23,322 nucleotides of DNA, taken from IMG/VR virus record IMGVR_UViG_3300049448_000062, positions 1-23,322 of that record; one strand, written 5' to 3'. The translations under genes and the position numbers were made by a program. The notes beneath the pieces are model-generated. The model searched no databases, was not told the DNA's origin, and saw only the letters and a list, made by a program, of their open reading frames with translations. Each line of letters opens with the position of its first letter. Within the stretch, counting starts at the first letter, position 1. Origin of the DNA: a virus. Shown here piece by piece: positions 4,302 through 18,669 of the stretch.

Positions 4302-4323
4302 AGCGAGCCGCGGTAGTCAATCC

Positions 4324-4351: not shown

Positions 4352-4372
4352 GCCTCGCGTTTGAGGATGCGT

Positions 4373-4639
4373 ATGACCGTCACCGTCCTGGCGTTGCGGG
4401 ACTTCTACTACTGCGGGCAAGACATCACCGCTGGCCAACCCGTGGCCATGATACCGATCGACGCCGCCGTGGAAGCACGGGCCGGCAACGTCAGCCTCGA
4501 CAAACAACTCCCCACCTATCACCGCCGAGACCTTCGGGCAGAAGAGGCTCCGCTGATGGCAGCCGTGCTTGAGGCGCTGCCCCCGGACCCGCCGAAGGTC
4601 GTGAAGCGTCGCCGCAGTCGCAAGAAGGTCATCGCTTGA
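4373..4639 (+). CDS. Small phage protein between capsid and portal
   Basis: 88 aa from the ATG at 4373, preceded by GAGG at 4363-4366 with 6-base spacing; TTG 4361 and ATG 4367 are in-frame alternatives but lack a spaced ribosome site. The first 50 residues look like a small beta-rich fold (MTVTVLALRDFYYCGQDI, then AGQPVAMIPIDAAVEARAGN). The tail is strongly basic (KVVKRRRSRKKVIA). Small ORFs of this general pattern occur beside phage head genes, but I cannot give a function. The stop overlaps the portal start by 4 bases (TTGA). The basic tail could bind DNA; that is inference. Confidence 0.75.
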   Translation: MTVTVLALRDFYYCGQDITAGQPVAMIPIDAAVEARAGNVSLDKQLPTYHRRDLRAEEAPLMAAVLEALPPDPPKVVKRRRSRKKVIA

Positions 4640-6066: not shown

Positions 6067-6583
6067 GGTGGTTGCGCTTCTTCTTGTTCGCGGTGCTCGT
6101 CAAGATTTGCAGGTTGGCTTCGACGTGCAGCCCGCAGACGATTGGACTGTTCAGGGGGACGATGTGATCGACGTCATGCTTGACGCCAGTCCGCTCTGTG
6201 AGTCTCAGCGCCTCCAGATAGACGGCCTTGATGGCTTCCGAGTTGGCCCAGGTCGGCGTGGCTTGGCGTTTCATCGCCATACGACGCATGACCAATTCCC
6301 GCTTGCGGTGTCGATTCTCAGATACCCATCTCTTCTCATTTTGGCGATGGCGATCGCTATTGGCTGCGCGCCACTTGCGCCACTCGTTTATTTTATGTTC
6401 CTTGTTGTTTTGGTACCACTCTGCGTAGGCGTTTGGGTGTGCTCGTCTCCACTTGGTCAGCTTCTGAATGTTGCATGGACGACAAGTGTACGAAAGCCCA
6501 TCTGGGGACGCCCGTCTAGTGCCGAACTCCGTTCGTGGCTTCCTGCATTCGCAGACGTTGCACCGCTTCAGTTCATCGATCAT
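6008..6583 (-). CDS. HNH homing-type endonuclease, free-standing
   Basis: 191 aa read on the minus strand from the ATG at 6583. The N-terminus has a zinc-finger-like Cys set (C8, C11, C34, C37 in RCNVCECRK and YTCRPCN), the middle is rich in Arg, Lys and Trp, and the C-terminus has the HNH motif: HDVDHIVPL (136-144), LHVEANLQI (152-160) and TANKKKRN (164-171). Such enzymes nick or cut DNA and spread into intergenic spots of phage genomes. The region is visibly more AT-rich than its neighbours, a sign of transfer. It sits between portal and fibre genes against the direction of all nearby structural genes. Its 3' end overlaps portal by 59 bases. A possible extended -10 (TGG-CATAAT on the minus strand, 6594-6602) would give a nearly leaderless transcript. 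Confidence 0.9.
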   Translation of the reverse strand: MIDELKRCNVCECRKPRTEFGTRRASPDGLSYTCRPCNIQKLTKWRRAHPNAYAEWYQNNKEHKINEWRKWRAANSDRHRQNEKRWVSENRHRKRELVMRRMAMKRQATPTWANSEAIKAVYLEALRLTERTGVKHDVDHIVPLNSPIVCGLHVEANLQILTSTANKKKRNHLMPLPPIGQHLQPYDEPRP

Positions 6584-6596
6584 GCCCAAGGCAATT

Positions 6597-7550
6597 ATGC
6601 CATTTAACGTCGACCAGATGGCGGACGTCGTGGTCTCCACAATTAAGGAGATCGTCAGCCCAATTGCCGCACGCCTGAAGGCCATCGAGGCCCGTGAGCC
6701 TATTCACGGCAAGGACGGCGAGATCGGTCCAGTCGGGCCAGCAGGCAAGGATGGCGTCAGCCTAACAGCGGCCGATGTCGAGCCGCTTGTCACGGTAGCT
6801 GTGACGAAAGCATTCCTGGCCCTGCCAACTCCCAAAGACGGGGCAGACGGCCTGGCTGGCAAGGATGGGGCTGACGGGCTGCAGGGCAAAGACGGGGCTC
6901 CTGGTCTCGACGGGAAAGATGGCGCCGAAGGTCTCCAGGGCAAGGACGGAGCGCAGGGACTGCAAGGCAAGGACGGCGCCGATGGCCTGAACGGGAAAGA
7001 TGGCGCTGACGGGCGAGATGGCGTCGACGGCAAGGATGGGCGAGACGGCATCGACGGGAAAGACGGCAAGGACGGCTCCAGCGTGACGCTGGACGACGTG
7101 GCCCCACTGGTTGAGGCGTCGGTAGCCAAGGCTGTTGCGGCCATTCCTGCGGCCAAGGACGGCGCCCCAGGCCACGACGGGGCAAACGGCAAGGATGGGC
7201 GAGATGGCTTGCCAGGCGTGCCGGGGCTGACCGGCGAGAAGGGCATCGACGGGACCGACGGCAAGGACGGCCTCGGCTTCGATGACGTCCACGTCGAGCA
7301 CGACGGGCATGGCGGATTCACCCTGAAGTTCATCCGCGGCGACCGCTCCAAGACATTCGGCGTGTTCCAGGTGCCTCGGTTTGAGTACCACGGCGTCTGG
7401 ACCCCCAAGCAGTACGAGAAGGGTGACGGCGTGACGTGGGCCGGCTCCCTGTGGATCGCGAAAACGACGACCTCCATGAAACCTGGTGACGGGTCTGACG
7501 GTTGGCAGCTCGCCGTCAAACGTGGCGCTGATGGGAAAAATGGCAAATGA
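6597..7550 (+). CDS. Collagen-like fibre protein with C-terminal carbohydrate-binding-like domain
   Basis: 317 aa from the ATG at 6597 (AAGG at 6588-6591, 5-base spacing); an ATG at 6582 is the alternative. A helical N-terminus (residues 3-34) is followed by Gly-X-Y repeats at about 38-53, 81-160 and 186-226, dominated by GKDGADG and GLQGKDG units. Two related non-collagen segments (58-80, TAADVEPLVTVAVTKAF; 164-186, TLDDVAPLVEASVAKAV) interrupt them and probably form trimeric coiled coils. The C-terminus (about 266-310, GVWTPKQYEKGDGVTWAG and W303) resembles the compact CBM5/12-like module found in phage fibres and chitinases. A trimeric fibre on the head or neck is likely; host adhesion is inferred. 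It is coupled by ATGA to the DUF115-like gene, which opens the glycosylation block, so it is a natural glycosylation substrate. Confidence 0.88.
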   Translation: MPFNVDQMADVVVSTIKEIVSPIAARLKAIEAREPIHGKDGEIGPVGPAGKDGVSLTAADVEPLVTVAVTKAFLALPTPKDGADGLAGKDGADGLQGKDGAPGLDGKDGAEGLQGKDGAQGLQGKDGADGLNGKDGADGRDGVDGKDGRDGIDGKDGKDGSSVTLDDVAPLVEASVAKAVAAIPAAKDGAPGHDGANGKDGRDGLPGVPGLTGEKGIDGTDGKDGLGFDDVHVEHDGHGGFTLKFIRGDRSKTFGVFQVPRFEYHGVWTPKQYEKGDGVTWAGSLWIAKTTTSMKPGDGSDGWQLAVKRGADGKNGK

Positions 7551-8221
7551 CCCACGCGCGCACGCCTGACGTCATTCTGGACACCGTAAGCCGGTCGTTC
7601 GAGGGTCAGCCCGTGGTCTGCATTGGGACAGGGCCGAGTCTGACCAAGGACGACGTGGCATCCGTCAAGGGTCAGGCCAAGGTCATCGCCATCAACGACG
7701 CGTATGCGTGGGCACCGGGGGCCGATGTGCTCTATGCCGCAGATGCCGCGTGGTGGCAGACACACAAGGACGCGCTGGCGTTCGCCGGCGAGAAGTACAC
7801 CGTGGTCAGCCCTGCCAAGATTGCCGATGGCGTGCAATTCCAAGGCGTGAAGCGCTTGCGCCATGCGGGCTATCGCGGCTTGTCCTTGCAACCGGATCGG
7901 CTCTGCCTAGGACTGGCTGGCGGATCGAACTCAGGCTATCAGGCGATCAACCTGGCCGTGCTCATGGGCGCCTCACGGATCCTGCTACTGGGGTACGACA
8001 TGCAGCGAGATGCGAACCGGCGCAACCACTTCTTCGGGAAGCATCCAGACGGCCTGTCGAACGCCTCGCCGTATGAACTGATGGCGCGGGCGTTCAATGA
8101 TCTCGTCGAGCCGCTGAAGCACCTCGGCATCCCTATTGTCAACTGCACGCGCGAAACGGCATTGACGGCCTTTCCACGGCAGCCGTTGCATGAGACGCTG
8201 GCGCAACAGGTGGCGGCATGA
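7547..8221 (+). CDS. DUF115/Maf-like (MptE-like fold) protein, copy 1
   Basis: 224 aa, ATGA overlap with the fibre gene. Motifs of the DUF115 (MAF_flag10) group are visible: PVVCIGTGPSL (22-32), a nucleotide-binding-like glycine loop, KVIAINDAYAWAPGADVL (45-62), and GYQAINLAVLMGASRILLLGYDM near 130-152. In Campylobacter and relatives, Maf proteins with this domain transfer nonulosonic acids to flagellin Ser/Thr, while MptE-like members are pterin diphosphokinases. A protein O-glycosyltransferase role fits the sugar-gene neighbours, but this is inference. The C-terminus (GIPIVNCTRETALTAFPRQP) closely matches copy 2 at 11813. The gene now ends 5 bases before the tail end of a minus-strand cassette, with no terminator between them. 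Confidence 0.82.
   Translation: MTHARTPDVILDTVSRSFEGQPVVCIGTGPSLTKDDVASVKGQAKVIAINDAYAWAPGADVLYAADAAWWQTHKDALAFAGEKYTVVSPAKIADGVQFQGVKRLRHAGYRGLSLQPDRLCLGLAGGSNSGYQAINLAVLMGASRILLLGYDMQRDANRRNHFFGKHPDGLSNASPYELMARAFNDLVEPLKHLGIPIVNCTRETALTAFPRQPLHETLAQQVAA
8209..8221 (+). repeat. 13-bp direct repeat, left copy, flanking the minus-strand cassette
   Basis: GGTGGCGGCATGA ends the DUF115-like gene (codons V-A-A-stop with an embedded ATG). An identical copy is at 9498-9510, on the other side of the minus-strand cassette, and both are followed by GGACG (one base further away on the right). It belongs to a family of similar junction sequences (see findings). Confidence 0.7.
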
Positions 8222-8226
8222 GGACG

Positions 8227-8505
8227 TTACTCCTTGGGCCGGATTCCGAAGCGAGAGAACGCGGCTCGTACCGCACGGTCCACGGAGCTGGCCGTCATGC
8301 GTGTCGGCGTGGCAACACCGAGGCACGAGCACCATACCTGCGCCGAGGACCGAGCTGTGGCTCCGCAGATATGGCATCGGTACTCAGTCTGGATAGACGG
8401 AGGTCTTCCGCCCTTCTGCCCGTTCAATCGAGCGGCGGCAGCCTTGGCCTCGCTCTTGGCTTTCCCGCCTTTACGTCCGAGGGAGACGGCGGCTCTGTTC
8501 TTCAT
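8227..8505 (-). CDS. Small protein with KGG-type basic motif and Cys cluster (cassette gene 5)
   Basis: 92 aa on the minus strand from the ATG at 8505, with AAGGAG about 8 bases upstream and an ATGA overlap with the preceding minus-strand gene. The N-terminus LGRKGGKAKSEAKAAAARLN followed by GQKGGRPPS is a recurrent basic motif in small bacterial and phage proteins. A CHIC plus CSC pair (YRCHICGA, WCSCLG) could bind zinc. Function is unknown. It is the last gene of the five-gene minus-strand cassette and converges with the DUF115-like gene. Confidence 0.75.
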   Translation of the reverse strand: MKNRAAVSLGRKGGKAKSEAKAAAARLNGQKGGRPPSIQTEYRCHICGATARSSAQVWCSCLGVATPTRMTASSVDRAVRAAFSRFGIRPKE

Positions 8506-8687
8506 GCTGCCTGCTCCTTGATGATCCGCTTGATTGCCTCGATGTGGCCGTTGGCCGATGCCCATGCTTCTGTTGTTGCGGTTTGGCCGACGTATGCATC
8601 GACTGCGGAGAGAGCCTTCAATGCTCTGTCCTGCGCTCGTTGCGCCTTCGCTCGTGCCCGAATCGCGTGCATGGCTGGTGACACCAT
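8502..8687 (-). CDS. Small helical protein (cassette gene 4)
   Basis: 61 aa on the minus strand from the ATG at 8687, which overlaps the upstream stop by one base (TAATG) and has AGAGGAG suitably upstream. Sequence such as MHAIRARAKAQRAQDRALKA and EAIKRIIKEQAA predicts almost all helix, rich in Ala, Arg and Lys. I do not recognise a family. The ribosome site and tight packing with its neighbours are the main support for it being real. Confidence 0.68.
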   Translation of the reverse strand: MVSPAMHAIRARAKAQRAQDRALKALSAVDAYVGQTATTEAWASANGHIEAIKRIIKEQAA

Positions 8688-8905
8688 TAGCGGATCTCCT
8701 CTGGTTCTGTCGGAAACTCGACGCCGTACTTCTTGGCCCATCGTCGCGCGTGGCGCCAGTCTGTGGTCACGCTTGTCCGGTGCATTGTTCGGCGCAGACG
8801 ACCGCCGTCTGGAATATCCCACTCGCTTACCATCGTCCACTGGAGTTCGCCAAGATAGCTACGCCTTAGTCGCAGGTAGTGGTCGCTGTGGCCGTGGCCT
8901 CTCAT
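8687..8905 (-). CDS. Small unknown protein (cassette gene 3)
   Basis: 72 aa on the minus strand, ATG at 8905 overlapping the preceding stop (ATGA). The ribosome site is weak (GGTGAAGCG). An internal ATG at 8833 would give 49 aa starting MVSEWDIPDGGRLRR. The N-terminus is rich in His, Arg and Tyr, the C-terminus acidic (GVEFPTEPEEIR). RHARRWAKKYGV suggests a basic helix. No family recognised; translational coupling supports the longer start. Confidence 0.62.
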   Translation of the reverse strand: MRGHGHSDHYLRLRRSYLGELQWTMVSEWDIPDGGRLRRTMHRTSVTTDWRHARRWAKKYGVEFPTEPEEIR

Positions 8906-9108
8906 CGCTTCACCAAGGGCATTACGAAGAACCCGAAGGTCTCATGTCCAGGTATGCCCTTGATCGCCTCTTCGGCGTGCTCACGGTAGCCGAACCCGCC
9001 GATGACCTCAAGGACCTCCCCGCCGCGGTGGGTCAGTTTGACGATGACGAACTCAGGACTAGCGCAGATCGGGCATCGCTTGACGGTCTTTTTGGTCTTG
9101 GTTGCCAT
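8902..9108 (-). CDS. Small CxxC protein (cassette gene 2)
   Basis: 68 aa on the minus strand from the ATG at 9108. Minus-strand GGAG lies 7 bases before it, inside the end of the previous gene, which stops only 3 bases upstream. It begins with a Lys/Thr-rich tail, then KRCPICASPEFVIVKLTHR: a single CxxC knuckle, so metal binding would need a dimer. The GGFGYREHAEEAIKGIPGHE region looks alpha/beta. No function recognised. Confidence 0.72.
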   Translation of the reverse strand: MATKTKKTVKRCPICASPEFVIVKLTHRGGEVLEVIGGFGYREHAEEAIKGIPGHETFGFFVMPLVKR

Positions 9109-9111
9109 TGT

Positions 9112-9378
9112 CTATCTCCATTCCGGAGCGATGTAAATCCTGACGCCGTAGTCCCGAGTCGCCTTTGTCCATGCCGGCGTGTCAGAGATGGCCAAGCCTG
9201 CCGACTTCGCCAGCTTGGCGATCCAAGCGTAGTCGGCCTTGCGGTAGAGCTTTACTTCGATGGTGTCCTCTCCGAGCGGCTTGGGTACCACGAAGAGGTT
9301 CTCGCCTCTCGCCTTGCCATCGATGGCCGCCAGGAGTTCGTCGCGCTTCCTCGTCGCCGTCGTCATCATCGTTTCCAT
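9112..9378 (-). CDS. Small alpha/beta protein, first gene of the minus-strand cassette
   Basis: 88 aa on the minus strand from the ATG at 9378. The longer open frame reaches an ATG at 9408, but that lies inside the -35/-10 spacer and cannot be on the transcript. The predicted transcription start falls at about 9378, so the mRNA may be leaderless; ATGs at 9369 and 9366 are alternatives. The sequence has a helix (RKRDELLAAIDGKA), strands (ENLFVVPKPLGEDTIEVKLY) and RIYIAPEW at the end. I do not recognise the family. Gene order and promoter make it the lead gene of a moron-like unit. Confidence 0.72.
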   Translation of the reverse strand: METMMTTATRKRDELLAAIDGKARGENLFVVPKPLGEDTIEVKLYRKADYAWIAKLAKSAGLAISDTPAWTKATRDYGVRIYIAPEWR

Positions 9379-9384
9379 GTAGAG

Positions 9385-9413
9385 AGTATTACCCAAGCGC
9401 TTGGGCATGTCAA
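9385..9413 (-). promoter_or_regulatory. Minus-strand sigma70-type promoter with palindromic operator in the spacer
   Basis: On the minus strand TTGACA (9413-9408, perfect -35) is followed by a 17-bp spacer and AATACT (9390-9385, 4 of 6 to the -10 consensus). Within the spacer lies a perfect 14-bp palindrome, CCCAAGCGCTTGGG (9392-9405). A protein bound there would block RNA polymerase, the classical repressor layout. This is the best sigma70-type promoter seen in the window, and it drives only the small minus-strand cassette. Confidence 0.8.
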
Positions 9414-9506
9414 TAGGGAATCGACCGGCCCAGATACGATTTTTGAAGAGAAAGCGAAACCATCAGAATTGCTAAGTATTATGGCTTTAGGACCGTTGGT
9501 GGCGGC
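9414..9506. other. AT-rich gap behind the cassette promoter
   Basis: No gene is supported here. The stretch is noticeably AT-rich and lies upstream of the minus-strand promoter, where an UP-like element could sit. On the plus strand TATTAT (9477-9482) matches a -10 at 5 of 6 positions, but no -35 is present at a proper distance, so a promoter for the downstream glycosylation genes is only a weak possibility. Confidence 0.4.
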
Positions 9507-9510
9507 ATGA
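9498..9510 (+). repeat. 13-bp direct repeat, right copy, flanking the minus-strand cassette
   Basis: Identical to 8209-8221. Its ATG (9507) is the start of the small zinc-ribbon gene. Before the cassette was inserted, that start probably overlapped the stop of the DUF115-like gene directly. Confidence 0.7.
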
Positions 9511-9683
9511 CGGACGCCGCACGTAAAGCCGTGCTCGCTAGTCGCTGGGCCTCCGTTGGGGCCTGCACGCGGTGTGGGTTGTTCATGCAGACCAAGCGCT
9601 TCCGGCGTTGCCTGCCCTGTCGTCGGAAGCACGCCCGCTGGGCGCTGGCCTTCTATCACCGTCGCAAGGCGGTGGCTGCGTGA
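9507..9683 (+). CDS. 58-aa zinc-ribbon-like protein
   Basis: A short gene of 58 aa between the ATG at 9507 and the TGA at 9683. Two CxxC pairs (C20, C23 in ACTRCGLF; C35, C38 in RCLPCRRKH) spaced by 11 residues form a plausible zinc ribbon, with a basic Arg/His/Trp-rich C-terminus, as in small nucleic-acid-binding phage proteins. It overlaps the next gene by 4 bases (GTGA), as do most + strand genes of this block, which strongly suggests it is real. GGTGG lies 4 bases before the ATG. Role unknown; a transcription or DNA-binding factor is possible. Confidence 0.72.
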   Translation: MTDAARKAVLASRWASVGACTRCGLFMQTKRFRRCLPCRRKHARWALAFYHRRKAVAA

Positions 9684-10519
9684 ACCTCCTGATCATTCCA
9701 GGCGGCAAGGAATCCGCACAGGTTCGCGGCCTCCAGTTGGGCCATGCCTTTGATGCGCGCGTCAGCGTCAAGCCCTCGCGCGGCCTGATCGCGTGGGCGG
9801 ATACCGTGGTCTGCGTCAAGCGCTCGCTGTTTGAGTTCGGCAACCTTGTGCGGGCCATTGGCAAGCCGCTGATCTGGGATGCCGTCGACTTCTGGGATCA
9901 GCCTGAGCAGAACGGCCTGACCGAGACTGAGGCGAAGGCGCTGCTGCACGCGCACATCGAGAAGTACCAGCCCGTGCTGGTGGTTGGCGCAACACGGTCG
10001 ATGGCTGATGCCGCTGGTGGCGTCTATCTCCCGCACCATTCACGGCCCGGACTCTCGGCTGGTCCTGTGCGTGAGAAGGTGCAGATCGTGGCGTATGAAG
10101 GCGTGCCGAAGTACCTCGGCAACTGGATGCACGCGATTGCTGGCGCGTGTATGAAGCGCGATTGGTCCTTCGTGATCAACCCAAAGGATCTGCGAGATGC
10201 AGACATCGTCGTGGCCTTCCGAGAGGGAAAGTATGACGGCTACATGTGCCGCGAATGGAAGAGCGGCGTCAAGATCGTCAACGCGATGGCGGCAGGACGG
10301 CCGATCATCACGCAGGACAACGCAGCCTTCCGCGAACTGTCGCCCATCGGCACCACGGTGACGGACCACCTTGAACTCGCGTCGGCCTTCGACAAGTACG
10401 CCGATCAGGCGCTGCGTCAGAGCGCGGTCGACCAGTCGCGATCGGAAGCCTTGACGCTGGAGCGCGTGGCCGCACGTTATCGTCGGATCCTGCTCGACGC
10501 CCATCAGGTGGCCTCGTGA
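9680..10519 (+). CDS. GT-B-type glycosyltransferase-like protein
   Basis: 279 aa from GTG 9680 (GTGA overlap). The N-terminal half is a Rossmann-like region (LLIIPGGKESAQVRGLQLG, PLIWDAVDFWDQP). The C-terminal half carries GVKIVNAMAAGRPIITQDN with AAFREL (about 197-220), the donor-site pattern of GT-B family 4 enzymes: an E/K-x-x-N-A-x-A-x-G-x-P segment followed by a conserved Glu. At 279 aa it is shorter than typical GT4 enzymes (about 350-400), so the acceptor domain may be reduced. Probable sugar transferase; donor and acceptor cannot be told. It ends with the repeated junction sequence GGTGGCCTCGTGA. Confidence 0.72.
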   Translation: MNLLIIPGGKESAQVRGLQLGHAFDARVSVKPSRGLIAWADTVVCVKRSLFEFGNLVRAIGKPLIWDAVDFWDQPEQNGLTETEAKALLHAHIEKYQPVLVVGATRSMADAAGGVYLPHHSRPGLSAGPVREKVQIVAYEGVPKYLGNWMHAIAGACMKRDWSFVINPKDLRDADIVVAFREGKYDGYMCREWKSGVKIVNAMAAGRPIITQDNAAFRELSPIGTTVTDHLELASAFDKYADQALRQSAVDQSRSEALTLERVAARYRRILLDAHQVAS

Positions 10520-11217
10520 AGAAGTATCCCAGAGTGTTCGGGGAAGTCGAGACCCTACAGCGCGTGGTCGCAGGGGCCAGTCTCGCGCGCTACGGTGACG
10601 GCGAGTTCAAGATGGCCTCGCGCGTGGTTGGCATCAAGTCGCAGGTCGCAAACGAGCGTCTCTCGGAGCGCCTCGCGTCTATTCTGACCACGTCTGGATC
10701 GTGCCTCGTGGGCGTGCCGAACATCCACGCAGTCATCGATGAGCACGTCTCCGACCAGAAGGTGGAGCACTGGTCGAAGTACCTGAATTATCGCTCGCTG
10801 CTATCAGACCGGCCCTACTACAGCAGTTTCGTGACGCGTCCGGATTCGGCACCGTGGATCAACACGCCTGAGTACTGGGCGCTGCTCGAGTCTCTCTGGC
10901 TCGGTCAGGACGTGACGCTGGTGCGCGGGAGCGGGAAGTCGCTCGTAGGAGAGGATCTGGACGGCGCGCGGACGGTCACGGAGATCGTAGCTCCGCGCCA
11001 GCATGCGTGGGCCGAGTACGCGTCACTCCTCGCGCGGATTGGGACGCCGAAGCGGGCGCTGCTCTGCCTCGGCCCGACAGCGACCGTGATGGCGGTGGAC
11101 CTGTGCGCGCGTGGTGTCCACGCGATCGATCTGGGCCATGTCGGGATGTTCCTCAGAAAAGTCAAGCGTGGCCAGCCGTTGGTCGTGACAGAGGAAGACA
11201 AGGTAGCCGTCGCATGA
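10516..11217 (+). CDS. GT-D fold glycosyltransferase (DUF1792-like)
   Basis: 233 aa from GTG 10516 (GTGA overlap). ASLARYGDGEFKMA (21-34) is the hallmark of DUF1792/GT-D enzymes: a strand followed by D-G-E, whose acidic residues bind the metal and nucleotide sugar. The C-terminal GTPKRALLCLGPTATVMAVD and IDLGHVGMFLR fit the second half of this fold. In streptococci the founding GT-D enzyme extends O-linked glycans on a serine-rich adhesin, so this gene fits a protein-glycosylation pathway. The length matches the family domain. The substrate is unknown. Confidence 0.82.
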   Translation: MKKYPRVFGEVETLQRVVAGASLARYGDGEFKMASRVVGIKSQVANERLSERLASILTTSGSCLVGVPNIHAVIDEHVSDQKVEHWSKYLNYRSLLSDRPYYSSFVTRPDSAPWINTPEYWALLESLWLGQDVTLVRGSGKSLVGEDLDGARTVTEIVAPRQHAWAEYASLLARIGTPKRALLCLGPTATVMAVDLCARGVHAIDLGHVGMFLRKVKRGQPLVVTEEDKVAVA

Positions 11218-11816
11218 CGATCGCCCACCGCGAGTTCCAGACCTACGCCGAGTATGTCTATCACCAAGGCGGCAAGGCCCGCGGCAACCGTGACGAGCTG
11301 CTGTCCCATCTCCAGAAGAAGACGGACGGCTTCGCGAAGATCTTCCGCATTGCGGCGAAGCATCTGAAGCCTGGATCGGTCCTGTGCCTTGGTGCGCGAA
11401 CCGGCGCCGAGTCAATCGGGGCAGAGCGCGCTGGCTTCGTCGGGTCTGTCGGTGTGGATCTGCATCCTGTCGGGCCGACGGTGCTGCAGGGCGACTGGCA
11501 CAGCTTGCCACAGTTCACGGATGCGTCGTTCGACAACGCCTACTGCAACAGCCTGGACCACTGCCTCTATCTCGACAAGTTCGCGGCCGAAGTGAAGCGC
11601 ATCCTGCGTCCTGATGGTCGGCTGTACCTGATGGCCACGAACCGCGAAGGCAACTCGGTGGAGTCGTGGCGCCAGAAGTGGAGCAAGAGCAACGAGGCGC
11701 TGTACTGGCAGACGTCGGACGATCTCTGCGCGGCGGTCTGCGCGTATGGCTTCGAGCGCGTGGCGCACTGGCGTGCGGGCAAGTGGGGCAACGACGTGCT
11801 GAAGGTGTCCGCGTGA
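11214..11816 (+). CDS. Class I SAM-dependent methyltransferase (copy A)
   Basis: 200 aa from ATG 11214 (ATGA overlap; AAGG about 10 bases upstream). Motif I is SVLCLGARTGAES (55-67), the acidic end of strand 2 is GVDLHP (80-85), and FDNAYCNSLDHCLYLDKF matches the Methyltransf_11 motif IV/post region with LRPDGRLYLM after it. It probably transfers methyl to a small molecule or sugar hydroxyl; methylated terminal sugars are common on surface glycans. Substrate is inference from the neighbouring glycosyltransferases. No DNA-methylase N/DPPY motif is present. Confidence 0.82.
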   Translation: MTIAHREFQTYAEYVYHQGGKARGNRDELLSHLQKKTDGFAKIFRIAAKHLKPGSVLCLGARTGAESIGAERAGFVGSVGVDLHPVGPTVLQGDWHSLPQFTDASFDNAYCNSLDHCLYLDKFAAEVKRILRPDGRLYLMATNREGNSVESWRQKWSKSNEALYWQTSDDLCAAVCAYGFERVAHWRAGKWGNDVLKVSA

Positions 11817-12445
11817 GCGTAGCCACGATGGAATACCGCAAGGCGTGGTCAATCCCACGAGAGTGGGCCGGCGAGCGCTGCTTCATCCTCTGCAACGGGG
11901 AAAGCCTCCGCGCGCAGAGGCATCTGATCCCGAAACTCAAAGGCCGGATCATCGCAATCAAGGAAGCCGTGCGCCTGCGGCCTGACGCGGACGTGCTGTT
12001 CGTTGCCGCCGAGCGTGCCGTGGACATCAATCCTCCCTTGTTCAAGCTGTTTACGGGGCAGTACATCATCGCCCGCAACAAGGTCCCGACCGGCTATCCG
12101 GAGTCCGTGCATCGCATTTGCCGCACGAAGGATCACGCGCACCTGTGCGATCTGCCGGATCACGTCTGTGGCTACGACTGCGGCACGTCAGCGATCAATG
12201 TGGCCTACCACTTCGGGGCGACAGAGATCATCCTGCTCGGGATGGATATGACCGGGAACCGCTGGTGCAATGGGGAGTTTGATCATCCGATGCCGGTTAT
12301 CCCCAATCAGCACCACGCACGGCACAAGTCGGTCCTGCCGGACATCGCGAAGGATGCGAAGGCGAAGGGCATCCGGATCGTGAACTGCTCACCGACGAGC
12401 GTGGTCACGGCCTTTGAGAAGCAGCCCTTGGAGGCGTTCCTGTGA
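11813..12445 (+). CDS. DUF115/Maf-like protein, copy 2
   Basis: 210 aa from GTG 11813 (GTGA overlap). It shares the layout of the first copy: RCFILCNGESL (22-32) replacing CIGTGPSL, RIIAIKEAVRLRPDADVLFV (45-64), CGTSAINVAYHFGATEIILL (123-142) and GMDM, ending GIRIVNCSPTSVVTAFEKQP. The two are paralogues that have diverged mainly in the middle (extra Cys and His residues here: HLCDLPDHVCGYDC). A glycosyl- or nucleotidyl-type transferase role is inferred from the family. It may act on a different acceptor or sugar from copy 1. Confidence 0.82.
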   Translation: MSVATMEYRKAWSIPREWAGERCFILCNGESLRAQRHLIPKLKGRIIAIKEAVRLRPDADVLFVAAERAVDINPPLFKLFTGQYIIARNKVPTGYPESVHRICRTKDHAHLCDLPDHVCGYDCGTSAINVAYHFGATEIILLGMDMTGNRWCNGEFDHPMPVIPNQHHARHKSVLPDIAKDAKAKGIRIVNCSPTSVVTAFEKQPLEAFL

Positions 12446-12594
12446 AGAAGTGGATCTATCGACGGTGCTACGCCTACGCCCACAACGGATTCCCTGGCTC
12501 GTACTTTGAGCTCGGCATCAACTACGAGCGCGGTGACGTCACGCTGATGCTGGGCTTCTGGTCCGTGGGTGTCTTTCTGCGTGGTAGCAAATGA
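12442..12594 (+). CDS. 50-aa protein of unknown function
   Basis: A 50-aa gene from GTG 12442 to TGA 12594, below the length cut-off of most gene finders. It has a strong ribosome site (GGAGG at 12430-12434, 7-base spacing) and 4-base overlaps with both neighbours (GTGA and ATGA). The sequence is aromatic-rich: MKKWIYRRCYAYAHNG at the start, then LGFWSVGVFLRGSK at the end. It might be a small beta protein; a weak hydrophobic stretch near the end is too short to call a membrane segment. No family recognised. Confidence 0.72.
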   Translation: MKKWIYRRCYAYAHNGFPGSYFELGINYERGDVTLMLGFWSVGVFLRGSK

Positions 12595-13262
12595 TCGTGG
12601 TCTACACGGCCATCATCGGCGGCTGCGACAGCTTGAAGCCTGCTCCTGTCGGCGCGGACAATTGCTATTGCTTCAGTGACGATCCAGCGATGTACGAAGG
12701 CATCGACGGTCGGGTCTTGGGGTGGCGTGTCGTGGGCGCCGGAGACTGGAGCGATCCACGTCGAGAAGCGTGGCACCTCCGTTGTGTGCCTCACGAACTG
12801 TTTCCGAGGGCTGACACGACGATCTGGATGGACGCCTCGTTCACGATGACGAACCTACCGAAGCTGCTCAAGGACTCGGCGGGCCACGAACTCGCAGCCT
12901 TGCGGCATCATGGACGCACCACGGTCACGGCTGAAGGCGCCGCGGTCGTGAAGGCGGGACAGGCCACGCAGGACGAAGTGGACACGCAACTCAGCGCCTA
13001 TCGCGCTGAAGGCTTCGGAATGATTCCGCTGTCGGTGTCCTGCATCCTCGTGCGACAGAACACGCCGAAGGTCACAGCGTTCAATAACCTGTGGGACTCA
13101 GAGATCAAGAAGTATCCCGGCGACAACACGCAACTGAGTCTGGACTATGCGGCGTGGAAGTCTGGACTGTTCTGGCATGCGCTGAAGGGCGGCAGGCTGG
13201 ACAACCCCTACGCGGTGCATGACCGCGCCGATCACAAGGCGCGACGAAAGCCGTACCGATGA
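12591..13262 (+). CDS. TOD1/MUCI70 (DUF616)-like glycosyltransferase
   Basis: 223 aa from ATG 12591 (ATGA overlap). MIVVYTAIIGGCDSLKPAPV at the start, NCYCFSD (24-30), the Arg/His-rich WHLRCVPHELFP (61-72) and IWMDASF (78-84) are the ordered motifs of the DUF616 (TOD1/MUCI70) group, a GT-A-like family in which the WxDAS segment takes the place of DxD. SCILVRQNTPKV and YPGDNTQLSLDYA match its C-terminal part. Likely sugar transferase; donor and acceptor unknown. Confidence 0.78.
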   Translation: MIVVYTAIIGGCDSLKPAPVGADNCYCFSDDPAMYEGIDGRVLGWRVVGAGDWSDPRREAWHLRCVPHELFPRADTTIWMDASFTMTNLPKLLKDSAGHELAALRHHGRTTVTAEGAAVVKAGQATQDEVDTQLSAYRAEGFGMIPLSVSCILVRQNTPKVTAFNNLWDSEIKKYPGDNTQLSLDYAAWKSGLFWHALKGGRLDNPYAVHDRADHKARRKPYR

Positions 13263-14062
13263 GCGAGACGATCCGCCTCTTCGTCGGATGCGATGGAACG
13301 AACTGTGATTTAGAGTCGCAGGTTGTGCTGGAGTATTCGCTGCGCAAGCACGCCAGTCAACCGGTCGAGATCGTCTGGATGCAGCAGGCCGCAGCGGGTC
13401 CGTGGAGCGACTGGAATTGTGCGCGTGGTAGGACTCCGTTCAGCGGGTTCCGATGGTCCGTGCCTTCCGTCTGCGGGTATGAAGGCAAGGCCCTGTACTG
13501 CGATAGCGACTTCGTGTTTTTATCTGACGTGGCTGAATTGTGGAACCAGCCGATTCCGGGCGTGGCGCTGATTAGGAACACTGAAGACAAGATCCAGCGG
13601 GCGGCCTGCATCCTGTTCGATTGTACCCACGCCAAGGGCCACGTCCCTCCGCTGAAGGCGCTGAAGAAGATCGCCGACCCACATGATCACTGCTGCCAAT
13701 ATTTCAGGCTGCATCGGGATCTGTTGGGGCGATTCGTGGGAAAATGGGACTGCATCGACTACGAGAAGGACTTCGAGTCCAGGCTGGCGTGGACGCCTGA
13801 ATCGATCAAGGCATATCACTACACCAGAATCTCCTCACAGTTGCAGTTGAAGCATGCCGTACCTCGGCTCGCGCGTGAAGGCCGATCCCATTGGTACACT
13901 GGCGCAATCCGTGCTCATCAGCGTCTGGAGTTGCAGGACATGTTCGACGGGTTACTTGCCGAAGCGCTCGCCGCTGGCTACTCTGTCGATCGGTATCGCG
14001 TCGCGCCATTCGCTGGCGCTACGAGACGAGACTTTGTCTATGCCAGCGAGAACCGGCGATGA
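13259..14062 (+). CDS. GT8-like (GT-A) glycosyltransferase
   Basis: 267 aa from ATG 13259 (ATGA overlap). RLFVGCDGTNCDLESQVVLE and SLRKHASQPVEIVWM form the nucleotide-binding start. FRWSVPSVCGYEGKALYCDS leads into the DSD metal site (82-84) and VFLSDVAELW, the GT8 layout in which a helix and the line 'Y-x-D-x-D-x-x-x-x-D-x-x-x-L' follow each other. AYHYTRI near residue 185 fits the late conserved His. The final 40 residues are less conserved. Its 3' end overlaps the GIY-YIG gene by 4 bases. Confidence 0.8.
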   Translation: MSETIRLFVGCDGTNCDLESQVVLEYSLRKHASQPVEIVWMQQAAAGPWSDWNCARGRTPFSGFRWSVPSVCGYEGKALYCDSDFVFLSDVAELWNQPIPGVALIRNTEDKIQRAACILFDCTHAKGHVPPLKALKKIADPHDHCCQYFRLHRDLLGRFVGKWDCIDYEKDFESRLAWTPESIKAYHYTRISSQLQLKHAVPRLAREGRSHWYTGAIRAHQRLELQDMFDGLLAEALAAGYSVDRYRVAPFAGATRRDFVYASENRR

Positions 14063-14748
14063 GTGACCGGTCCTACGTCTACGCGATCTCTGTTGATGGT
14101 GTTGTGCGATACATCGGAAAGGGCACCGGAGGCAGAGTCAAGAAGCATCTGGAAATAGCTCGACGTATTCTGCGCATGAGACGCCAGGGCCATAAGCCTA
14201 AGGAATCGTACTTCCACAACAAGTTGGCAAAGGCTCTGAGGGCTGGAGCAAACGTAACGCACCGGATCATTTGCTCGGGATTGTCCGAGGACAACGCGTA
14301 TGCCATGGAAGCGTTGGAGATCTCGCGCGCTCCGAAGGGCCAGTTGTGGAATCAGTGGTCTGGAGGATATGGCAGTAGGTTCGCATCGCCAGAGTTGCGC
14401 AAACGCATGAGCGAGTGGGCCACGAAGAGGGCCGAATCTGGTGGCCTGAAGTATTTCCACGATGCTGCCCATACGCCTGAAGTGTACAAGAAGCGTGGAC
14501 AGACCCTAAAGCAGACGTACCGAGATCGTCCTGAAATCGTTCTCCAGACGGCAGAGAAGTCTAGCCTGTGGTGGTCTGCCAACAAAGACGCGCAGCGAGC
14601 CAAGCTCACTGATGCGTGGTCTCGTCCTGAAACGCGTGCCAAGCACCGCGCCTACCTGGACAGTCCTCAAGGACGAGCCAATTTGAAGGCTGCCTCCGAT
14701 GCGCGATGGGCCAAGGTTCGTGCCGCCAAGATTGCGGTGGCCTCGTGA
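14059..14748 (+). CDS. GIY-YIG homing-type endonuclease
   Basis: 229 aa from ATG 14059 (ATGA overlap with the GT8-like gene). The catalytic domain occupies about residues 5-100: the 'GIY' strand is YVYAI (6-10), the 'YIG' strand VVRYIGKGTGGRV (15-27, with Arg26), and Glu84 in YAMEALEI plus the later LWNQWSGGYG complete the site. Repeated basic helix segments follow (PELRKRMSEWATKRA, YKKRGQTLKQTYRD, QGRANLKAASDARWAK), like NUMOD-type DNA-binding modules. It is a free-standing mobile endonuclease wedged between a glycosyltransferase and a methyltransferase, yet it keeps RTGA overlaps at both ends, so operon coupling is not broken. Confidence 0.88.
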   Translation: MSDRSYVYAISVDGVVRYIGKGTGGRVKKHLEIARRILRMRRQGHKPKESYFHNKLAKALRAGANVTHRIICSGLSEDNAYAMEALEISRAPKGQLWNQWSGGYGSRFASPELRKRMSEWATKRAESGGLKYFHDAAHTPEVYKKRGQTLKQTYRDRPEIVLQTAEKSSLWWSANKDAQRAKLTDAWSRPETRAKHRAYLDSPQGRANLKAASDARWAKVRAAKIAVAS

Positions 14749-15308
14749 TCGCTGACTTGACTGTGGACGACCTGATCAGTCCGGCCTATCGCCAGACGCA
14801 GATCGAACTCCACGCCAAGCCTCGCGGTTACGGCGGTAAGGGCGAGAAGTGGTCCGCTGCGGTGGCGGCCTGCGCCTTCGTGCGCGAGGTGAAGACGATC
14901 CTCGATTACGGGTGCGGACAGGGCAGCCTGAACCATGCGCTGAGTACCACACGGAAGCTCTATACGTTCTCGGAGTACGACCCTGCGGTGCCTGGGAAGG
15001 ACGGCCTGCCGGAGGCCGCAGATCTCGTGGTCTGCACGGACGTGCTGGAGCACATCGAGCCTGACAAATTGGGCGCCGTGCTGGTGCATCTGCGAGGGCT
15101 GACCAAGGTGGCGCTGTTCGTGGTGATCGCTGTGCGGCCGTCGAACAAGACGCTGAGCGATGGACGCAACGCGCACCTGATCCTAGAGGCTAGTGACTGG
15201 TGGCTGCGTCAGTTGCAGTCGTCTGGCTTCGCGCTAGAGCCGGACGAACCGAAGTGCTACGAGCCACGTCCTGATCATTCGTTTGTGGGAGTGTTTCGAC
15301 CATGCTGA
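14745..15308 (+). CDS. Class I SAM-dependent methyltransferase (copy B)
   Basis: 187 aa from GTG 14745 (GTGA overlap). Motif I is TILDYGCGQGSL (51-62), an unambiguous SAM-binding glycine loop; EYDPAVPGK follows strand 2, and DLVVCTDVLEHIEPDKLG (93-110) is the post-I/IV region of Methyltransf_23-like enzymes. The start ISPAYRQTQIELHAKPRGYG is often seen in small phage methyltransferases. Substrate unknown; sugar or lipid methylation is suggested by neighbours. The stop overlaps the next start in ATGCTGA. Confidence 0.85.
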   Translation: MIADLTVDDLISPAYRQTQIELHAKPRGYGGKGEKWSAAVAACAFVREVKTILDYGCGQGSLNHALSTTRKLYTFSEYDPAVPGKDGLPEAADLVVCTDVLEHIEPDKLGAVLVHLRGLTKVALFVVIAVRPSNKTLSDGRNAHLILEASDWWLRQLQSSGFALEPDEPKCYEPRPDHSFVGVFRPC

Positions 15309-15901
15309 CCGAGTTCTTCGAAGGCGCGGAGTTGACTGGCGATCGGCCTGCCGTGACGCGTCTGCGAAGCCGTACGGACCTCTGCAAACTGTTTGCCTCG
15401 CTGGCCTACAAGCGCGGCGCCGAGATTGGCGTCTGGGCAGGGGAGTTCTCAGAGGTCATCTGCCGCCTCAATCCAGGCGTGCATCTGATCGGCGTGGATC
15501 CGTGGCTCCAATACAAGCACTACAACGAGAAGAAGAACAACCAGGGACGGCTCGATCAGGCATACGCCGAGGCGCAAGAACGGGTCAAGCCATACGACTG
15601 CGAGCTGTGGCGCACCACGTCCCTGAAGGCAGCAGCGCGCGTGCCGGATGGTTCGCTGGACTTTGTCTATCTGGATGGGAATCATGCAAAGGCCTTCGTT
15701 GAACAAGACCTTGCTGCCTGGGTTCCCAAGGTTAGATCAGGTGGGATTCTCTCAGGGCATGATTATACGTTCAACACGAAGAAGCCTTGGATTCAAGACG
15801 TCAAGCCTGCCGTTGATGCGTTCACGCTCGATCGGAACATCACTCGGTGGTACGTGCTCGCTCAAGAGAAGGCCCCGTCCTTTTTCTGGGTGGTTGAATG
15901 A
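15302..15901 (+). CDS. Methyltransf_24-type SAM-dependent methyltransferase (copy C)
   Basis: 199 aa from ATG 15302 (GGGAG at 15287-15291; 7-base overlap ATGCTGA). GAEIGVWAGEFSEVIC (39-54) is motif I, LIGVDPWLQY (62-71) holds the strand-2 Asp, and DFVYLDGNHAKAFVEQDLAA with SGGILSGHDY are the classical Methyltransf_24 motifs (metal-type D-x-x-H). This family often methylates sugars or small phenols. PSFFWVVE is a normal family-style C-terminus, so the overlap of its last 40 bases with the HNH gene did not truncate it. The stop lies in ATGA (15898-15901), a start-stop overlap whose downstream partner has been displaced. Confidence 0.86.
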   Translation: MLTEFFEGAELTGDRPAVTRLRSRTDLCKLFASLAYKRGAEIGVWAGEFSEVICRLNPGVHLIGVDPWLQYKHYNEKKNNQGRLDQAYAEAQERVKPYDCELWRTTSLKAAARVPDGSLDFVYLDGNHAKAFVEQDLAAWVPKVRSGGILSGHDYTFNTKKPWIQDVKPAVDAFTLDRNITRWYVLAQEKAPSFFWVVE

Positions 15902-16395
15902 CGTCCATGCCGAGCGATGTATCTGCGTTGGGCCTCTCGGTGCATAGCCAGTTGGCGAGCATCCCGCTTACAGAGCAAGCAACGTCGTCCACCGGCTGGA
16001 CGATTGTTGCCAGGCGGGAACAGATGCCCGCGATTACAGTGCGTACGCGCGGCATGTTTAGCGGCCATGCTGGTACCTCTCAGCACGTTCTCGCGAGCCG
16101 TTGTGAGTTTCAGGTGCGAGGGGTTAACGCACGATCTGCGATCGCAGACTACGTGATCAAGTTGCGGTATGCCTCGACCAAGGCCCTTTGGGATTGGTTC
16201 AACAAGCCACGCATACAGCAGGCGATGGATCGGCCCTCGAATGTTGGCGACAGAATTGGCTCCATAGCCTGCGGTATTAAGAGATCCGGTCCACACCCAG
16301 CAACCCGTCTGTTGATCGACTCTTATCTTGGAGAAGATCCGTGTCAGGTGTTTAGTGTGCAGGCGCGGAACGATGAGATAGTCTTTATCAGCCAT
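15862..16395 (-). CDS. HNH endonuclease (HNH_3 type), free-standing
   Basis: 177 aa on the minus strand from the ATG at 16395, with a very strong ribosome site (AAGGAGG, 8-base spacing). DQQTGCWVWTGSLNTAGYG (28-46) and HRLLYAWLVEPIPKGL (57-72) are the AP2/HNH_3-style front part; LDHVVCDRRSCVNPSHL (79-95) contains the H-N-H core with zinc-binding Cys84 and Cys89, and LTTARENVLRG (97-107) is the usual tail helix. A second Cys pair with a His (THCNRGHLF, CLLCKRD) may form another zinc knuckle. It lies against the transcription of its surroundings between a methyltransferase and a GT2 gene. It is unrelated in sequence to the HNH at 6008-6583. Confidence 0.9.
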   Translation of the reverse strand: MADKDYLIVPRLHTKHLTRIFSKIRVDQQTGCWVWTGSLNTAGYGANSVANIRGPIHRLLYAWLVEPIPKGLGRGIPQLDHVVCDRRSCVNPSHLKLTTARENVLRGTSMAAKHAARTHCNRGHLFPPGNNRPAGGRRCLLCKRDARQLAMHREAQRRYIARHGRHSTTQKKDGAFS

Positions 16396-16493
16396 GCGCG
16401 TGTCCTCCTTCGTAGGGTGCGCTCGTGGTCAGGGTCGGGATGGTGTTTCAGCACTGTCCCGGCCCGTTCATTGTACGCCAACCGGGTGAAGGC
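16396..16493. other. Gap between HNH gene and GT2 gene
   Basis: This stretch contains the HNH ribosome site (minus strand) and the approach to the GT2 start. I see no convincing promoter. A plus-strand frame runs open across the HNH insertion from the stranded ATGA at 15898 to the GTGA at 16494-16497. Confidence 0.4.
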
Positions 16494-17276
16494 GTGAAGG
16501 ATCTGACCCTTGTCCTGCCGCACTACCAAAACCTGGGCATGTGGGCCGAGCAACAGAAGGTCTGGGCCGACTATCCCAAGGCGCTGCGGTCTCGGCTGCA
16601 TGTCGTGCTGGTCGATGACTGCTCACCGAAGGCCGAGCGGCCGACGCGCAAGTCGATCACGGTTGATGGCCTCGCCTCCTTGCGGATCTATCGCCTGCTG
16701 GAGCACAAGCGCTGGAACTGGCTGGCCTGCCGGAACCTCGGCGCAAAGGTGGCCACTCCGGGATGGCTGCTGCTGACGGACATCGATCATGTCATGCCGT
16801 CGCAGACGATGGGCGCGTTGATGCAAGCCGAGTTGGACACGCGCTGCGCCTATCGGTTCAACCGAGTGGACGCTCCTCGTCCCTGGCCGTATCACGTCCA
16901 CGAGTGCAAGCCCTACAAGCCGCACAACGATACGTGGCTGATGACGCGCGATCTGTTCTTCAGCAAGGGCGTGTTCGGCTATGACGAGCGGCTCTCCGGC
17001 TGCTACGGCACGAGCGGGGAGTTCAAGGACCGGGTCTTTGCTACCGCACGATCGGTGACGCGGCTCAATGAGGTCGTCATCCGCTACCCGCGCGAGATCA
17101 TCCCTGACGCGTCCACGCACCCGTCGGTCTACACCCGGAAGAACGATCCGGTCAACGACAAGGAACTCGAAGTGCGGAAGGCGCAACGTGATCTGGTCAA
17201 GAACTGGAAGCCGCTGCACGGTCTGATTCCGTACGAGGAAGTGTACTCATCACTCGGCGTGGAGGTTCCATGCTGA
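16494..17276 (+). CDS. GT2-like glycosyltransferase
   Basis: 260 aa from GTG 16494, which gives the typical GT2 start MKDLTLVLPHYQNLGMWAEQ; an ATG at 16425 would add 23 unlikely residues. HVVLVDDCSP (36-45) is the nucleotide-sugar strand with its Asp pair, NWLACRNLGAK (75-85) is the conserved R-N-x-G segment, and LLLTDIDHVMP (92-102) is the metal-binding DxD equivalent. GYDERLSGCYGTSGEFKDR is the acceptor/catalytic acidic region (E-x-F-x-x-R style). GT-A fold enzyme transferring a sugar from a nucleotide sugar; specificity unknown. Confidence 0.85.
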   Translation: MKDLTLVLPHYQNLGMWAEQQKVWADYPKALRSRLHVVLVDDCSPKAERPTRKSITVDGLASLRIYRLLEHKRWNWLACRNLGAKVATPGWLLLTDIDHVMPSQTMGALMQAELDTRCAYRFNRVDAPRPWPYHVHECKPYKPHNDTWLMTRDLFFSKGVFGYDERLSGCYGTSGEFKDRVFATARSVTRLNEVVIRYPREIIPDASTHPSVYTRKNDPVNDKELEVRKAQRDLVKNWKPLHGLIPYEEVYSSLGVEVPC

Positions 17277-18013
17277 GTATTGTGACGTGGAAGTGGAACA
17301 CGCCTGGCTACCGGTCGAAGTTTGGACCGGAGTCGGTCAACGTGCTCAAGTCGATGGTGGATCGCCACTACCAAGACCCGCACCGCTTTCTCTGCGTCAC
17401 CGATGATGCGGCTGGGATTGATACGTCTGTCGAGATCATCAAGCCGTGGAATGACTTCATCGACTTGCCATCCCCGCATGATCTGCAGGCGTCCAAGAAG
17501 CGCAACCCGAGCTGCTATCGCCGGCTGCGGGCCTACCATCCGGAGATCGGCGCGACGTTCGGTCCACGCTTTGTGATGATCGACCTGGACTGCGTGATCA
17601 CGGGAGACCTTCGGCCGGTCTGGAATCGGCCAGAAGACTTTGTTTCCTGGGGTGACACGAATCCGCAGAAGGGCAGCCACTACAACGGCAGCCTCTGCCT
17701 GATGACGGCGGGATGTCGGCCGCAGGTCTGGACCGAGTTTGATCCGAATACCTCCCCAGCGAAGGCGCTGCGCGCGTCCTGCTGGGGCTCCGACCAGGGC
17801 TGGATCTCGTACTGCCTCGGCCCGAAGGAAGCCAAGTGGGGCAAGGCTGACGGGGTCTACAGCTTCCGGAATCACCTACAGGGACAGCGACAGTTGCCGG
17901 CGAACGCGAAGATCATTGTCTTTCACGGCCGGATTGATCCCTGGTCTCCCGAGGCCCAAGACCTGCCGTGGGTGCAGCAGCATTACCGATTGGAGACGAC
18001 ATGCGCCGCGTAG
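17270..18013 (+). CDS. GT-A-like glycosyltransferase, phage/capsular type
   Basis: 247 aa from ATG 17270, with GGAGG at 17261-17265 and a 7-base ATGCTGA overlap. IVTWKWNTPGYRSKFGPESV and DRHYQDPHRFLCVTDDAAGI (31-50) are the start and nucleotide-binding region; RRLRAYHPEIGATFGPRFVM leads to DLD (105-107) in IDLDCVITGDLRP, the metal site of GT8-like enzymes. GSHYNGSLCLM and SDQGWISYC are the later motifs with the D-Q of the catalytic end, followed by IIVFHGRIDPW. Closest to the small glycosyltransferases found in phage structural regions. It overlaps the connector gene by 13 bases, which ties the sugar block to the head-tail genes. Confidence 0.82.
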   Translation: MLSIVTWKWNTPGYRSKFGPESVNVLKSMVDRHYQDPHRFLCVTDDAAGIDTSVEIIKPWNDFIDLPSPHDLQASKKRNPSCYRRLRAYHPEIGATFGPRFVMIDLDCVITGDLRPVWNRPEDFVSWGDTNPQKGSHYNGSLCLMTAGCRPQVWTEFDPNTSPAKALRASCWGSDQGWISYCLGPKEAKWGKADGVYSFRNHLQGQRQLPANAKIIVFHGRIDPWSPEAQDLPWVQQHYRLETTCAA

Positions 18014-18669
18014 CCATTCGCACGCGTGATTCACTGATCACGCCCGCGACGTACGAGCCCATCACGCCAGCAGAAGTCAAGCTGCAGACACGCCTCGGGA
18101 ATATGACGGCGGAAGATGCGCTGCTGGACATCTACATCGCGAAGGCGCGCAGCTTCTTCGAGGGGATCACGGGGCGGCAGTTGATGCCCGCCACGTGGGA
18201 GCTGTGGCTGGACGGCTTTCCGATTGACACGACGATTGAGTTGCCCAAGTCGCCGCTGCTCGATGTGGTCAGCGTCAAGTACATCGATGGCGACGGAACC
18301 GAGCAGACCCTCTCCGACACGCTCTACACGGTGATCAATCCGCAGGGCGAGAACCCCGAGCGCGGGTCGATCTCCCTGCTGTCGTCCACCTCGACCTGGC
18401 CAGCCGCATCCGAGCGGGCCTACTCGGTCAAGATTCGGTACGAGGCGGGGTATGTAGACACGTCCGTGAGTCCGCTGTCGCCCAACGTGCCGGCCATCAT
18501 CAAGGGGTTCCTGTTGCAGCTGGTGGGCGATTCCTACGAGTTCCGATCGCTCAGTACGGAGATTCGCGCCTCGCTGCTCGAGATCGATCCCGATGATTCC
18601 GTGATCCGTCACTTCAAGACGGCGGCACGGATTGAACCGTGGCGATGGGAGACCACGCCGTGGCTGTAA
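18001..18669 (+). CDS. Head-tail connector protein (HK97 gp6-like)
   Basis: 222 aa from ATG 18001 (GGAG at 17992-17995). ITPAEVKLQTRLGNMTAEDA followed by LLDIYIAKARSFFEGITGRQ is the N-terminal signature of the gp6/DUF-type connector (helices that form the ring under the portal). ATWELWLDGFP, the P-K-S-P-L strand and VKIRYEAGYVD form the family's beta part. A GTG at 17968 would add 11 residues but lacks a ribosome site. It attaches below the portal, which here is 11.9 kb upstream, so the adjacency has been broken by the sugar block. Confidence 0.9.
   Translation: MRRVAIRTRDSLITPATYEPITPAEVKLQTRLGNMTAEDALLDIYIAKARSFFEGITGRQLMPATWELWLDGFPIDTTIELPKSPLLDVVSVKYIDGDGTEQTLSDTLYTVINPQGENPERGSISLLSSTSTWPAASERAYSVKIRYEAGYVDTSVSPLSPNVPAIIKGFLLQLVGDSYEFRSLSTEIRASLLEIDPDDSVIRHFKTAARIEPWRWETTPWL

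Follow-up and report, generated by a model that had tools for sequence, protein, structure and literature searches.

Glycosylation of phage virions is already known. In phage Corndog, an O-methyltransferase and three transferases are encoded between the portal and protease genes; they were seen in infected cells and were absent from virions, and a role on the capsid was proposed (PMC4351075). For phages Che8 and Rita, phage-encoded glycans on the capsid and tail tube proteins of the virion are attributed to Freeman et al. (2023) in the articles that cite that work (PMC11256854, PMC12619734). In this work, a set of glycosyltransferase and methyltransferase genes was analyzed in the IMG/VR virus record IMGVR_UViG_3300049448_000062, the whole of which (23,322 bases) is referred to as the window. 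Between the genes for the portal and the head-tail adaptor (Ad1), the window encodes a collagen-like protein, two MptE/DUF115-like proteins of sialyltransferase fold (Mpt), six glycosyltransferase-like proteins and three S-adenosylmethionine (SAM) methyltransferases. We conclude that this block is probably a modular virion-glycosylation cassette in the late structural operon, and we rate the Mpt-based cassette as a widespread variant of the known trait, with different enzymes.

Recurrence and gene order of the cassette

The block is a real gene set and chance is excluded, because dozens of contigs carry the same genes in a conserved order, namely portal, (collagen), (small adaptor), Mpt, variable glycosyltransferase and methyltransferase genes, GT2, GTA, adaptor, head closure and neck. 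The relatives were obtained by a GT-D scan, which gave 22 viral loci, by a GTA scan, which gave 497 IMG/VR relatives of which 80 were kept, and by a GT2 scan, which added further loci (loci and contigs bear L numbers); their genes were called with a simple gene caller and then clustered. The downstream neighbors in the relatives are connector and tail genes according to PHROGs, and one group has another portal type downstream. The variable members in some relatives include FkbM methyltransferases and a GDP-mannose-dehydratase-like epimerase, and the GT2 family was present in 84 of the 107 sequences examined. At least 13 changes in the presence of GTA were counted along the capsid tree, and therefore phages gain and lose the cassette as a unit. 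It was also observed beside a different portal type (phrog_21) in L014, L015, L068, L090, L103, and L107, which indicates transfer between phage groups. Thus, the cassette is modular and no oddity of this contig.

Cultured and named phages carry related blocks as well. Tetraselmis virus S20 has Mpt, GT-D, Mpt, MT2, GT2, and GTA between its capsid and head-closure genes, and further relatives were found in a podovirus and in D3 (orf7). In the Caulobacter jumbo phages CcrColossus (98832-103385) and CcrPW (106444-110988), both cultured, the block lies between tail and lysis genes and consists of Mpt, nucleotide-sugar transferase, methyltransferase, and GT9-like genes. In phage P1, PmgO and PmgP match the Mpt profile (E 4e-40 and 8e-13) and PmgQ matches the GTA profile (2e-25); judged from these profile matches, a glycosyltransferase-type role is likely for the "putative morphogenetic" genes pmgO, pmgP, and pmgQ. 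In the P1 genome (NC_005856, 79592-82150; L029:3964-6522), these three genes flank the phosphatase gene ppp. A genome scan with a broad GTA alignment gave no pattern, and a search for hosts through prophages found close GTA relatives solely on phage-like contigs of metagenome-assembled genomes (L110, L111). The other top genome matches of GTA were distant chromosomal homologs of about 25-35% identity; these loci (L114-L189) lie on the chromosomes of Burkholderiales and other bacteria, and some of the homologs are paired.

The PHROG profiles give the window the order terminase, fused protease-capsid protein (phrog_617), portal, block, adaptor, head closure, neck, major tail, and tape measure proteins (Table 1). 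A first reading of this DNA made from the letters alone (the sequence-only reading) had placed the glycosyltransferase and methyltransferase block between portal and connector, and this is borne out by phrog_2271 and phrog_442 at its borders; the true start of Ad1 is probably at about 18001. The gene content named there, two DUF115/Maf-like, six glycosyltransferase-like, and three SAM methyltransferase genes, was also recovered by Pfam, PHROG, or motif evidence. On the other hand, the block had been described as one run of overlapping starts. Most successive genes do share an overlap of 4-7 bases, but four interruptions had been missed, namely an endonuclease-VII-like gene that parts the portal from the collagen-like gene, a patch of small reverse open reading frames (ORFs), a GIY-YIG endonuclease and an HNH endonuclease. 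Contig L108 is 99.8% identical to the window across 3123-8917, and therefore that part of the window is no assembly artefact.

Table 1. Features of the window from the portal to the head-tail adaptor, with the matches that support them (E-values follow the profile names).
Feature	Coordinates	Strand	Evidence
Portal protein (HK97-type), upstream border	4636..6066	+	phrog_2271, E 4.7e-116
Endonuclease VII/HNH-like gene between portal and collagen	6008..6589 (start approximate)	-	phrog_1035 (endonuclease VII), 4e-19
Collagen-like protein with portal-associated C-terminal domain	6582..7550	+	PF01391, 1e-19; phrog_1289, 4e-30, on C-terminus
Mpt1, MptE/DUF115-like, sialyltransferase-like fold	7547..8221	+	phrog_4603, 2e-46; predicted local distance difference test (pLDDT) of model 90.7
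Up to five small reverse ORFs	8227..9408	-	No Pfam match, no convincing PHROG match
GT-B-like glycosyltransferase	9680..10519	+	PF13692, 4.5e-3, below cut-off; conserved in L007, L008, L009, L011
GT-D-fold glycosyltransferase	10516..11217	+	PF08759, 5e-31; RxGDGE (DxE) motif intact
SAM methyltransferase MT1	11214..11816	+	PF08241, 5.6e-9
Mpt2, second MptE-like/sialyltransferase-fold protein	11828..12445	+	phrog_4603, 5e-17; second copy recurrent in relatives
TOD1/MUCI70 (DUF616)-like glycosyltransferase	12591..13262	+	PF04765, 1.3e-12
GT-A-like glycosyltransferase (GT8 of the sequence-only reading)	13259..14062	+	No Pfam match; DSD/DxD invariant in 7 relatives
GIY-YIG endonuclease, insertion between the preceding gene and MT2	14059..14748	+	PF22945, 1.4e-6
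SAM methyltransferase MT2, core cassette gene	14745..15308	+	phrog_24759, 8e-20
SAM methyltransferase MT3	15302..15901	+	PF13578, 9e-16
HNH endonuclease, insertion between MT3 and GT2	15862..16395	-	phrog_826, 3e-33
GT2-family glycosyltransferase, core cassette gene	16440..17276	+	PF00535, 3.8e-4, just under cut-off
GTA, GT8-type (LgtC/glycogenin-like) glycosyltransferase, core cassette gene	17270..18013	+	phrog_1962, 1e-12; DLD invariant
Head-tail adaptor Ad1, downstream border	17968..18669	+	phrog_442, 1.4e-19

Enzymes of the cassette

Mpt1 is the proposed first (initiating) glycosyltransferase. The family phrog_4603, which is named alpha-2,3-sialyltransferase, matches most of the length of both Mpt proteins, and a profile search with Mpt1 hints at MptE. 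By comparing the Mpt1 model with the PDB in Foldseek, the most sensible match was ST6GalNAc2, a weak one (probability 0.92, template modeling score 0.42), and the resemblance of Mpt to sialyltransferases appears to lie at the level of the fold. The cut-off of the Maf/DUF115 family PF01973 was missed, with 29.6 and 30.3 bits for the window proteins versus the curated 34.6. The presence of two Maf-like proteins had been thought unusual in the sequence-only reading; two Mpt genes were in fact found in many relatives and in phage P1.

The GT-D protein scores 108.7 bits versus the PF08759 cut-off of 27, its R-x-G-D-G-E motif is invariant in 18 relatives, and it matches the solved GalT1 structures 4phr and 4pfx (phmmer 2e-23), so that its assignment stands, as does that of the DUF616-like protein by PF04765. 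The GT-B assignment is weaker, its PF13692 match being under the cut-off, although the gene is kept in four relatives. Similarly, the "GT8" label given to the protein at 13259 finds no Pfam match, but its DxD motif is invariant in relatives. For GTA, no match was obtained to Pfam families at E<=0.1; its model (pLDDT 94.3) has LgtC (Foldseek 1.4e-8) and glycogenin (E ~1e-8) as best PDB neighbors, and on this model GTA is a GT8-type protein of GT-A fold with a DxD motif.

The methyltransferases match small-molecule or sugar types, and MT2 is 44-47% identical to genes in S20 and the Caulobacter jumbo phages. One phrog label among them reads "DNA methyltransferase", and phage glycosyltransferases that hypermodify DNA do exist according to an article citing Pyle et al. 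(2024) (PMC12619734), which is a precedent for the explanation that the glycosyltransferases of the cassette glycosylate hypermodified phage DNA. However, Pfam contradicts this lone label with Methyltransf_24, the operon is structural and not replicative, and a gene of the thymidylate synthase family, the usual partner in base hypermodification, occurs in just 3 of the 24 long cassette records. Modification of DNA is thus highly improbable.

A likely transmembrane segment was not found in any cassette product; one hydrophobic stretch, in MT2, was taken as a buried strand. This bears on the explanation that the enzymes modify the host surface, i.e., lipopolysaccharide (LPS) or capsule, and so block superinfection or change the serotype. 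Lipooligosaccharide is a substrate of GT8-type enzymes such as LgtC, and the LPS core can be a target of cytosolic glycosyltransferases; in addition, an integrase is present in 10 of the 24 long records. Nevertheless, no integrase was seen in 14 of them, different phage types retain the cassette's position among virion genes, and the cassette has no flippase, polymerase, or membrane glycosyltransferase by transmembrane prediction or Pfam match, which includes the hallmarks of gtrABC-type serotype conversion (membrane flippase and membrane glycosyltransferase). We therefore consider a host-surface target unlikely.

The collagen-like protein

The sequence-only reading coupled the block to the adjoining collagen-like protein, on which the cassette would make an O-methylated glycan in the manner of BclA. 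The collagen-like gene and Mpt1 do overlap by 4 bp, and GTA alone co-occurs with collagen above expectation (26/32 phages with GTA, 19/46 without; p=5e-4), a figure uncorrected for descent. Of 11 independent pairs with a difference in GTA on the capsid tree, 9.1 had the same collagen state. Collagen was present in 16 of 28 non-redundant portal-to-neck intervals with cassette genes versus 7 of 11 without (39 intervals in all). In the larger set of phages of this capsid type, where collagen meant at least six Gly-X-Y repeats, the counts were 28/45 versus 17/33 (p=0.36), and collagen passed the cut-off in just 10 of the 24 long cassette records. Collagen lies beside the portal in loci with the cassette and in cassette-free ones, and the cassette is also found without collagen. 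The tract itself, of 27 + 13 + 6 Gly-X-Y triplets in the window, is composed of Pro, Asp, Ala, Arg, Glu, and Lys; Thr occupies 2.2% and Ser plus Thr 5.4% of its X/Y positions, and Ser plus Thr make up about 4% across 32 collagens. Collagen as an obligate cassette partner was rejected on these grounds of co-occurrence, tree-based pairs, cassette-free phages with collagen, and Ser/Thr-poor repeats. The collagen-like gene belongs to the portal module and is inherited with the portal, with no required place in the cassette, and a glycan made specifically on this fiber is improbable.

Proposed function and acceptor

Action of the cassette on the virion is probable because several phage types keep the block inside their virion operons, all of its products appear soluble, and Corndog and Che8/Rita set a precedent. 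This part of the sequence-only reading is therefore supported, and the fiber as its target is not. We infer enzyme activity, order of action, acceptor, and benefit as follows. Late in infection, an abundant virion protein would receive its first sugar from soluble Mpt, which would draw on a nucleotide sugar of the host and use hydroxyl residues as attachment points. GT-D, GT-B, DUF616, GT2, and GTA would then extend the glycan in the cytosol, one sugar at each step, and the methyltransferases would cap it with O-methyl groups, so that the glycan length would be set by the size of the cassette. The capsid or another shared head, neck, or tail protein would be a more likely acceptor than the collagen tract. 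In loci chosen by capsid, with the cassette ignored, Mpt and GTA were found together in 18, Mpt alone in 13, neither in 32, and GTA without Mpt in 1; GT2 was rarer still. That GTA almost never occurs without Mpt suggests that Mpt acts first and the others extend, although the nesting could also reflect the history of acquisition.

The C-termini of virion proteins were compared because, as summarized in PMC12619734, the glycans of mycobacteriophages occupy the C-terminal ends of the capsid and tail tube proteins. A rule was fixed before the test, namely that GTA goes along with a Ser among the final four residues of the capsid protein (24/29 versus 3/17 in the training set). A capsid tail ending in S-P-x, picked post hoc, occurred only with GT2 and GTA (13/16 versus 0/62) and was found in 2 of 5 fresh GT2-positive capsids; it clusters in a portion of the tree, and the tree gives only 4 well-supported independent pairs, a small number. 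In the window (4268-4301) and relatives this tail reads "..NWGS[IV]GSPx", solely in phages with GT2 and GTA. The capsid C-terminus is thus a weak lead as acceptor site. The C-termini of MTP, TT, Hc1, Neck1, Ad1, and Ad1b were inspected as well; in some members of the lineage that bears the cassette (L009, L030, L048, L050, L052, and L074), Neck1 has a flexible Gly/Ser/Thr-rich tail ending in L, which is absent in the window. It is possible, though doubtful, that a widespread and independently mobile system of siphoviruses, jumbo phages, podoviruses, and P1, with an Mpt initiator and variable glycosyltransferases and O-methyltransferases, sugar-coats the capsid C-terminus ("..NWGSxGSPx") as an environmental shield or surface tuner.

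Several points weigh against virion glycosylation by the cassette. The capsid C-terminal Ser failed as a general acceptor mark in a fresh set (2/3 versus 13/29). The best PDB matches of Mpt are weak, and none is significant beyond the sialyltransferase-like and MptE hints. Genes for nucleotide sugars are absent from the window, and virion chemistry for any cassette-bearing phage was not found in the literature. Furthermore, pmgO, pmgP, and pmgQ of P1 are dispensable for plaque formation (PMC10695390), and therefore any benefit would be conditional. If virion glycosylation by the cassette is true, covalent sugar coating of phage particles would extend beyond mycobacteriophages as a mobile module that is common in environmental phages and occurs even in P1, and P1 genes long called "putative morphogenetic" would gain a function. 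Some of the capsid peptides that go missing in proteomics would also be accounted for, and a standard E. coli system would allow tests of what phage glycans are for (shielding, diffusion, host binding, or particle stability).

Insertions in the late operon

Three endonuclease genes (endonuclease-VII-like, GIY-YIG, and HNH) lie in this one late operon. Between the end of Mpt1 (8221) and the start of the next forward gene (9680) lie five small reverse ORFs. Two forward ORFs, 8218-9510 and 15898-16497, appear to be shadow ORFs. Relatives show the same neighbors overlapping directly, with Mpt1 and GT-D overlapping where the window has the reverse ORFs (e.g., Mpt-GT-D-GT-B in L009), and therefore the interruptions of the window are insertions. 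The endonuclease-VII-like gene is missing at the corresponding place in L007, L008, and L009. A related GIY-YIG gene was observed inside the cassettes of L009 and L055, and a related HNH gene inside that of L011. The patch of reverse ORFs is also present in L108, as far as 8917; one of these ORFs had no phage match by tblastn, and among the fetched loci m8227 alone has a relative, a single one in L277.

Comparison with known systems

A description of an Mpt/GT-D/GT2/GT8-like cassette, or of its link to P1 PmgO/P/Q, was not found in the literature, covered mostly without subscription papers, and novelty is unproven. Like the Corndog type (Cluster O gp35-38; PMC4351075), the window has glycosyltransferase and O-methyltransferase genes among head and connector genes, but it has at least 11 genes versus 4 in Corndog, for which no Mpt or GT-D is reported. 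Mycobacteriophage homologs of Mpt1, Mpt2, GT-D, GT2, MT2, and GTA were absent among the tblastn matches listed at E<=1e-5. The likeness to Che8/Rita would lie in phage-encoded glycans on virion proteins; Maravista, a phage related to them, has its glycosyltransferase genes close to the genome's 3' end, outside the head operon, and no homologs were found here. With the Maf/DUF115 flagellin glycosylation proteins, the window Mpt proteins share a distant PF01973 similarity below the Pfam cut-off, and they are closer to phrog_4603 and sialyltransferase folds. The collagen tract of BclA is Thr-rich. The window protein has Gly-X-Y repeats like BclA, but their X/Y positions are not Thr-rich.

The S20 block (TVGG_00049-00041), annotated only gene by gene, is similar to the window in its gene set between capsid and head-closure genes, but no collagen was found and no GT-B, DUF616, or GT8 was detected there. 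Finally, pmgO-pmgP-ppp-pmgQ of P1 differs from the window in belonging to another P1 operon and in being without GT-D, GT2, and methyltransferases; with its two Mpt homologs and one GTA homolog, it resembles a minimal version of the cassette core.

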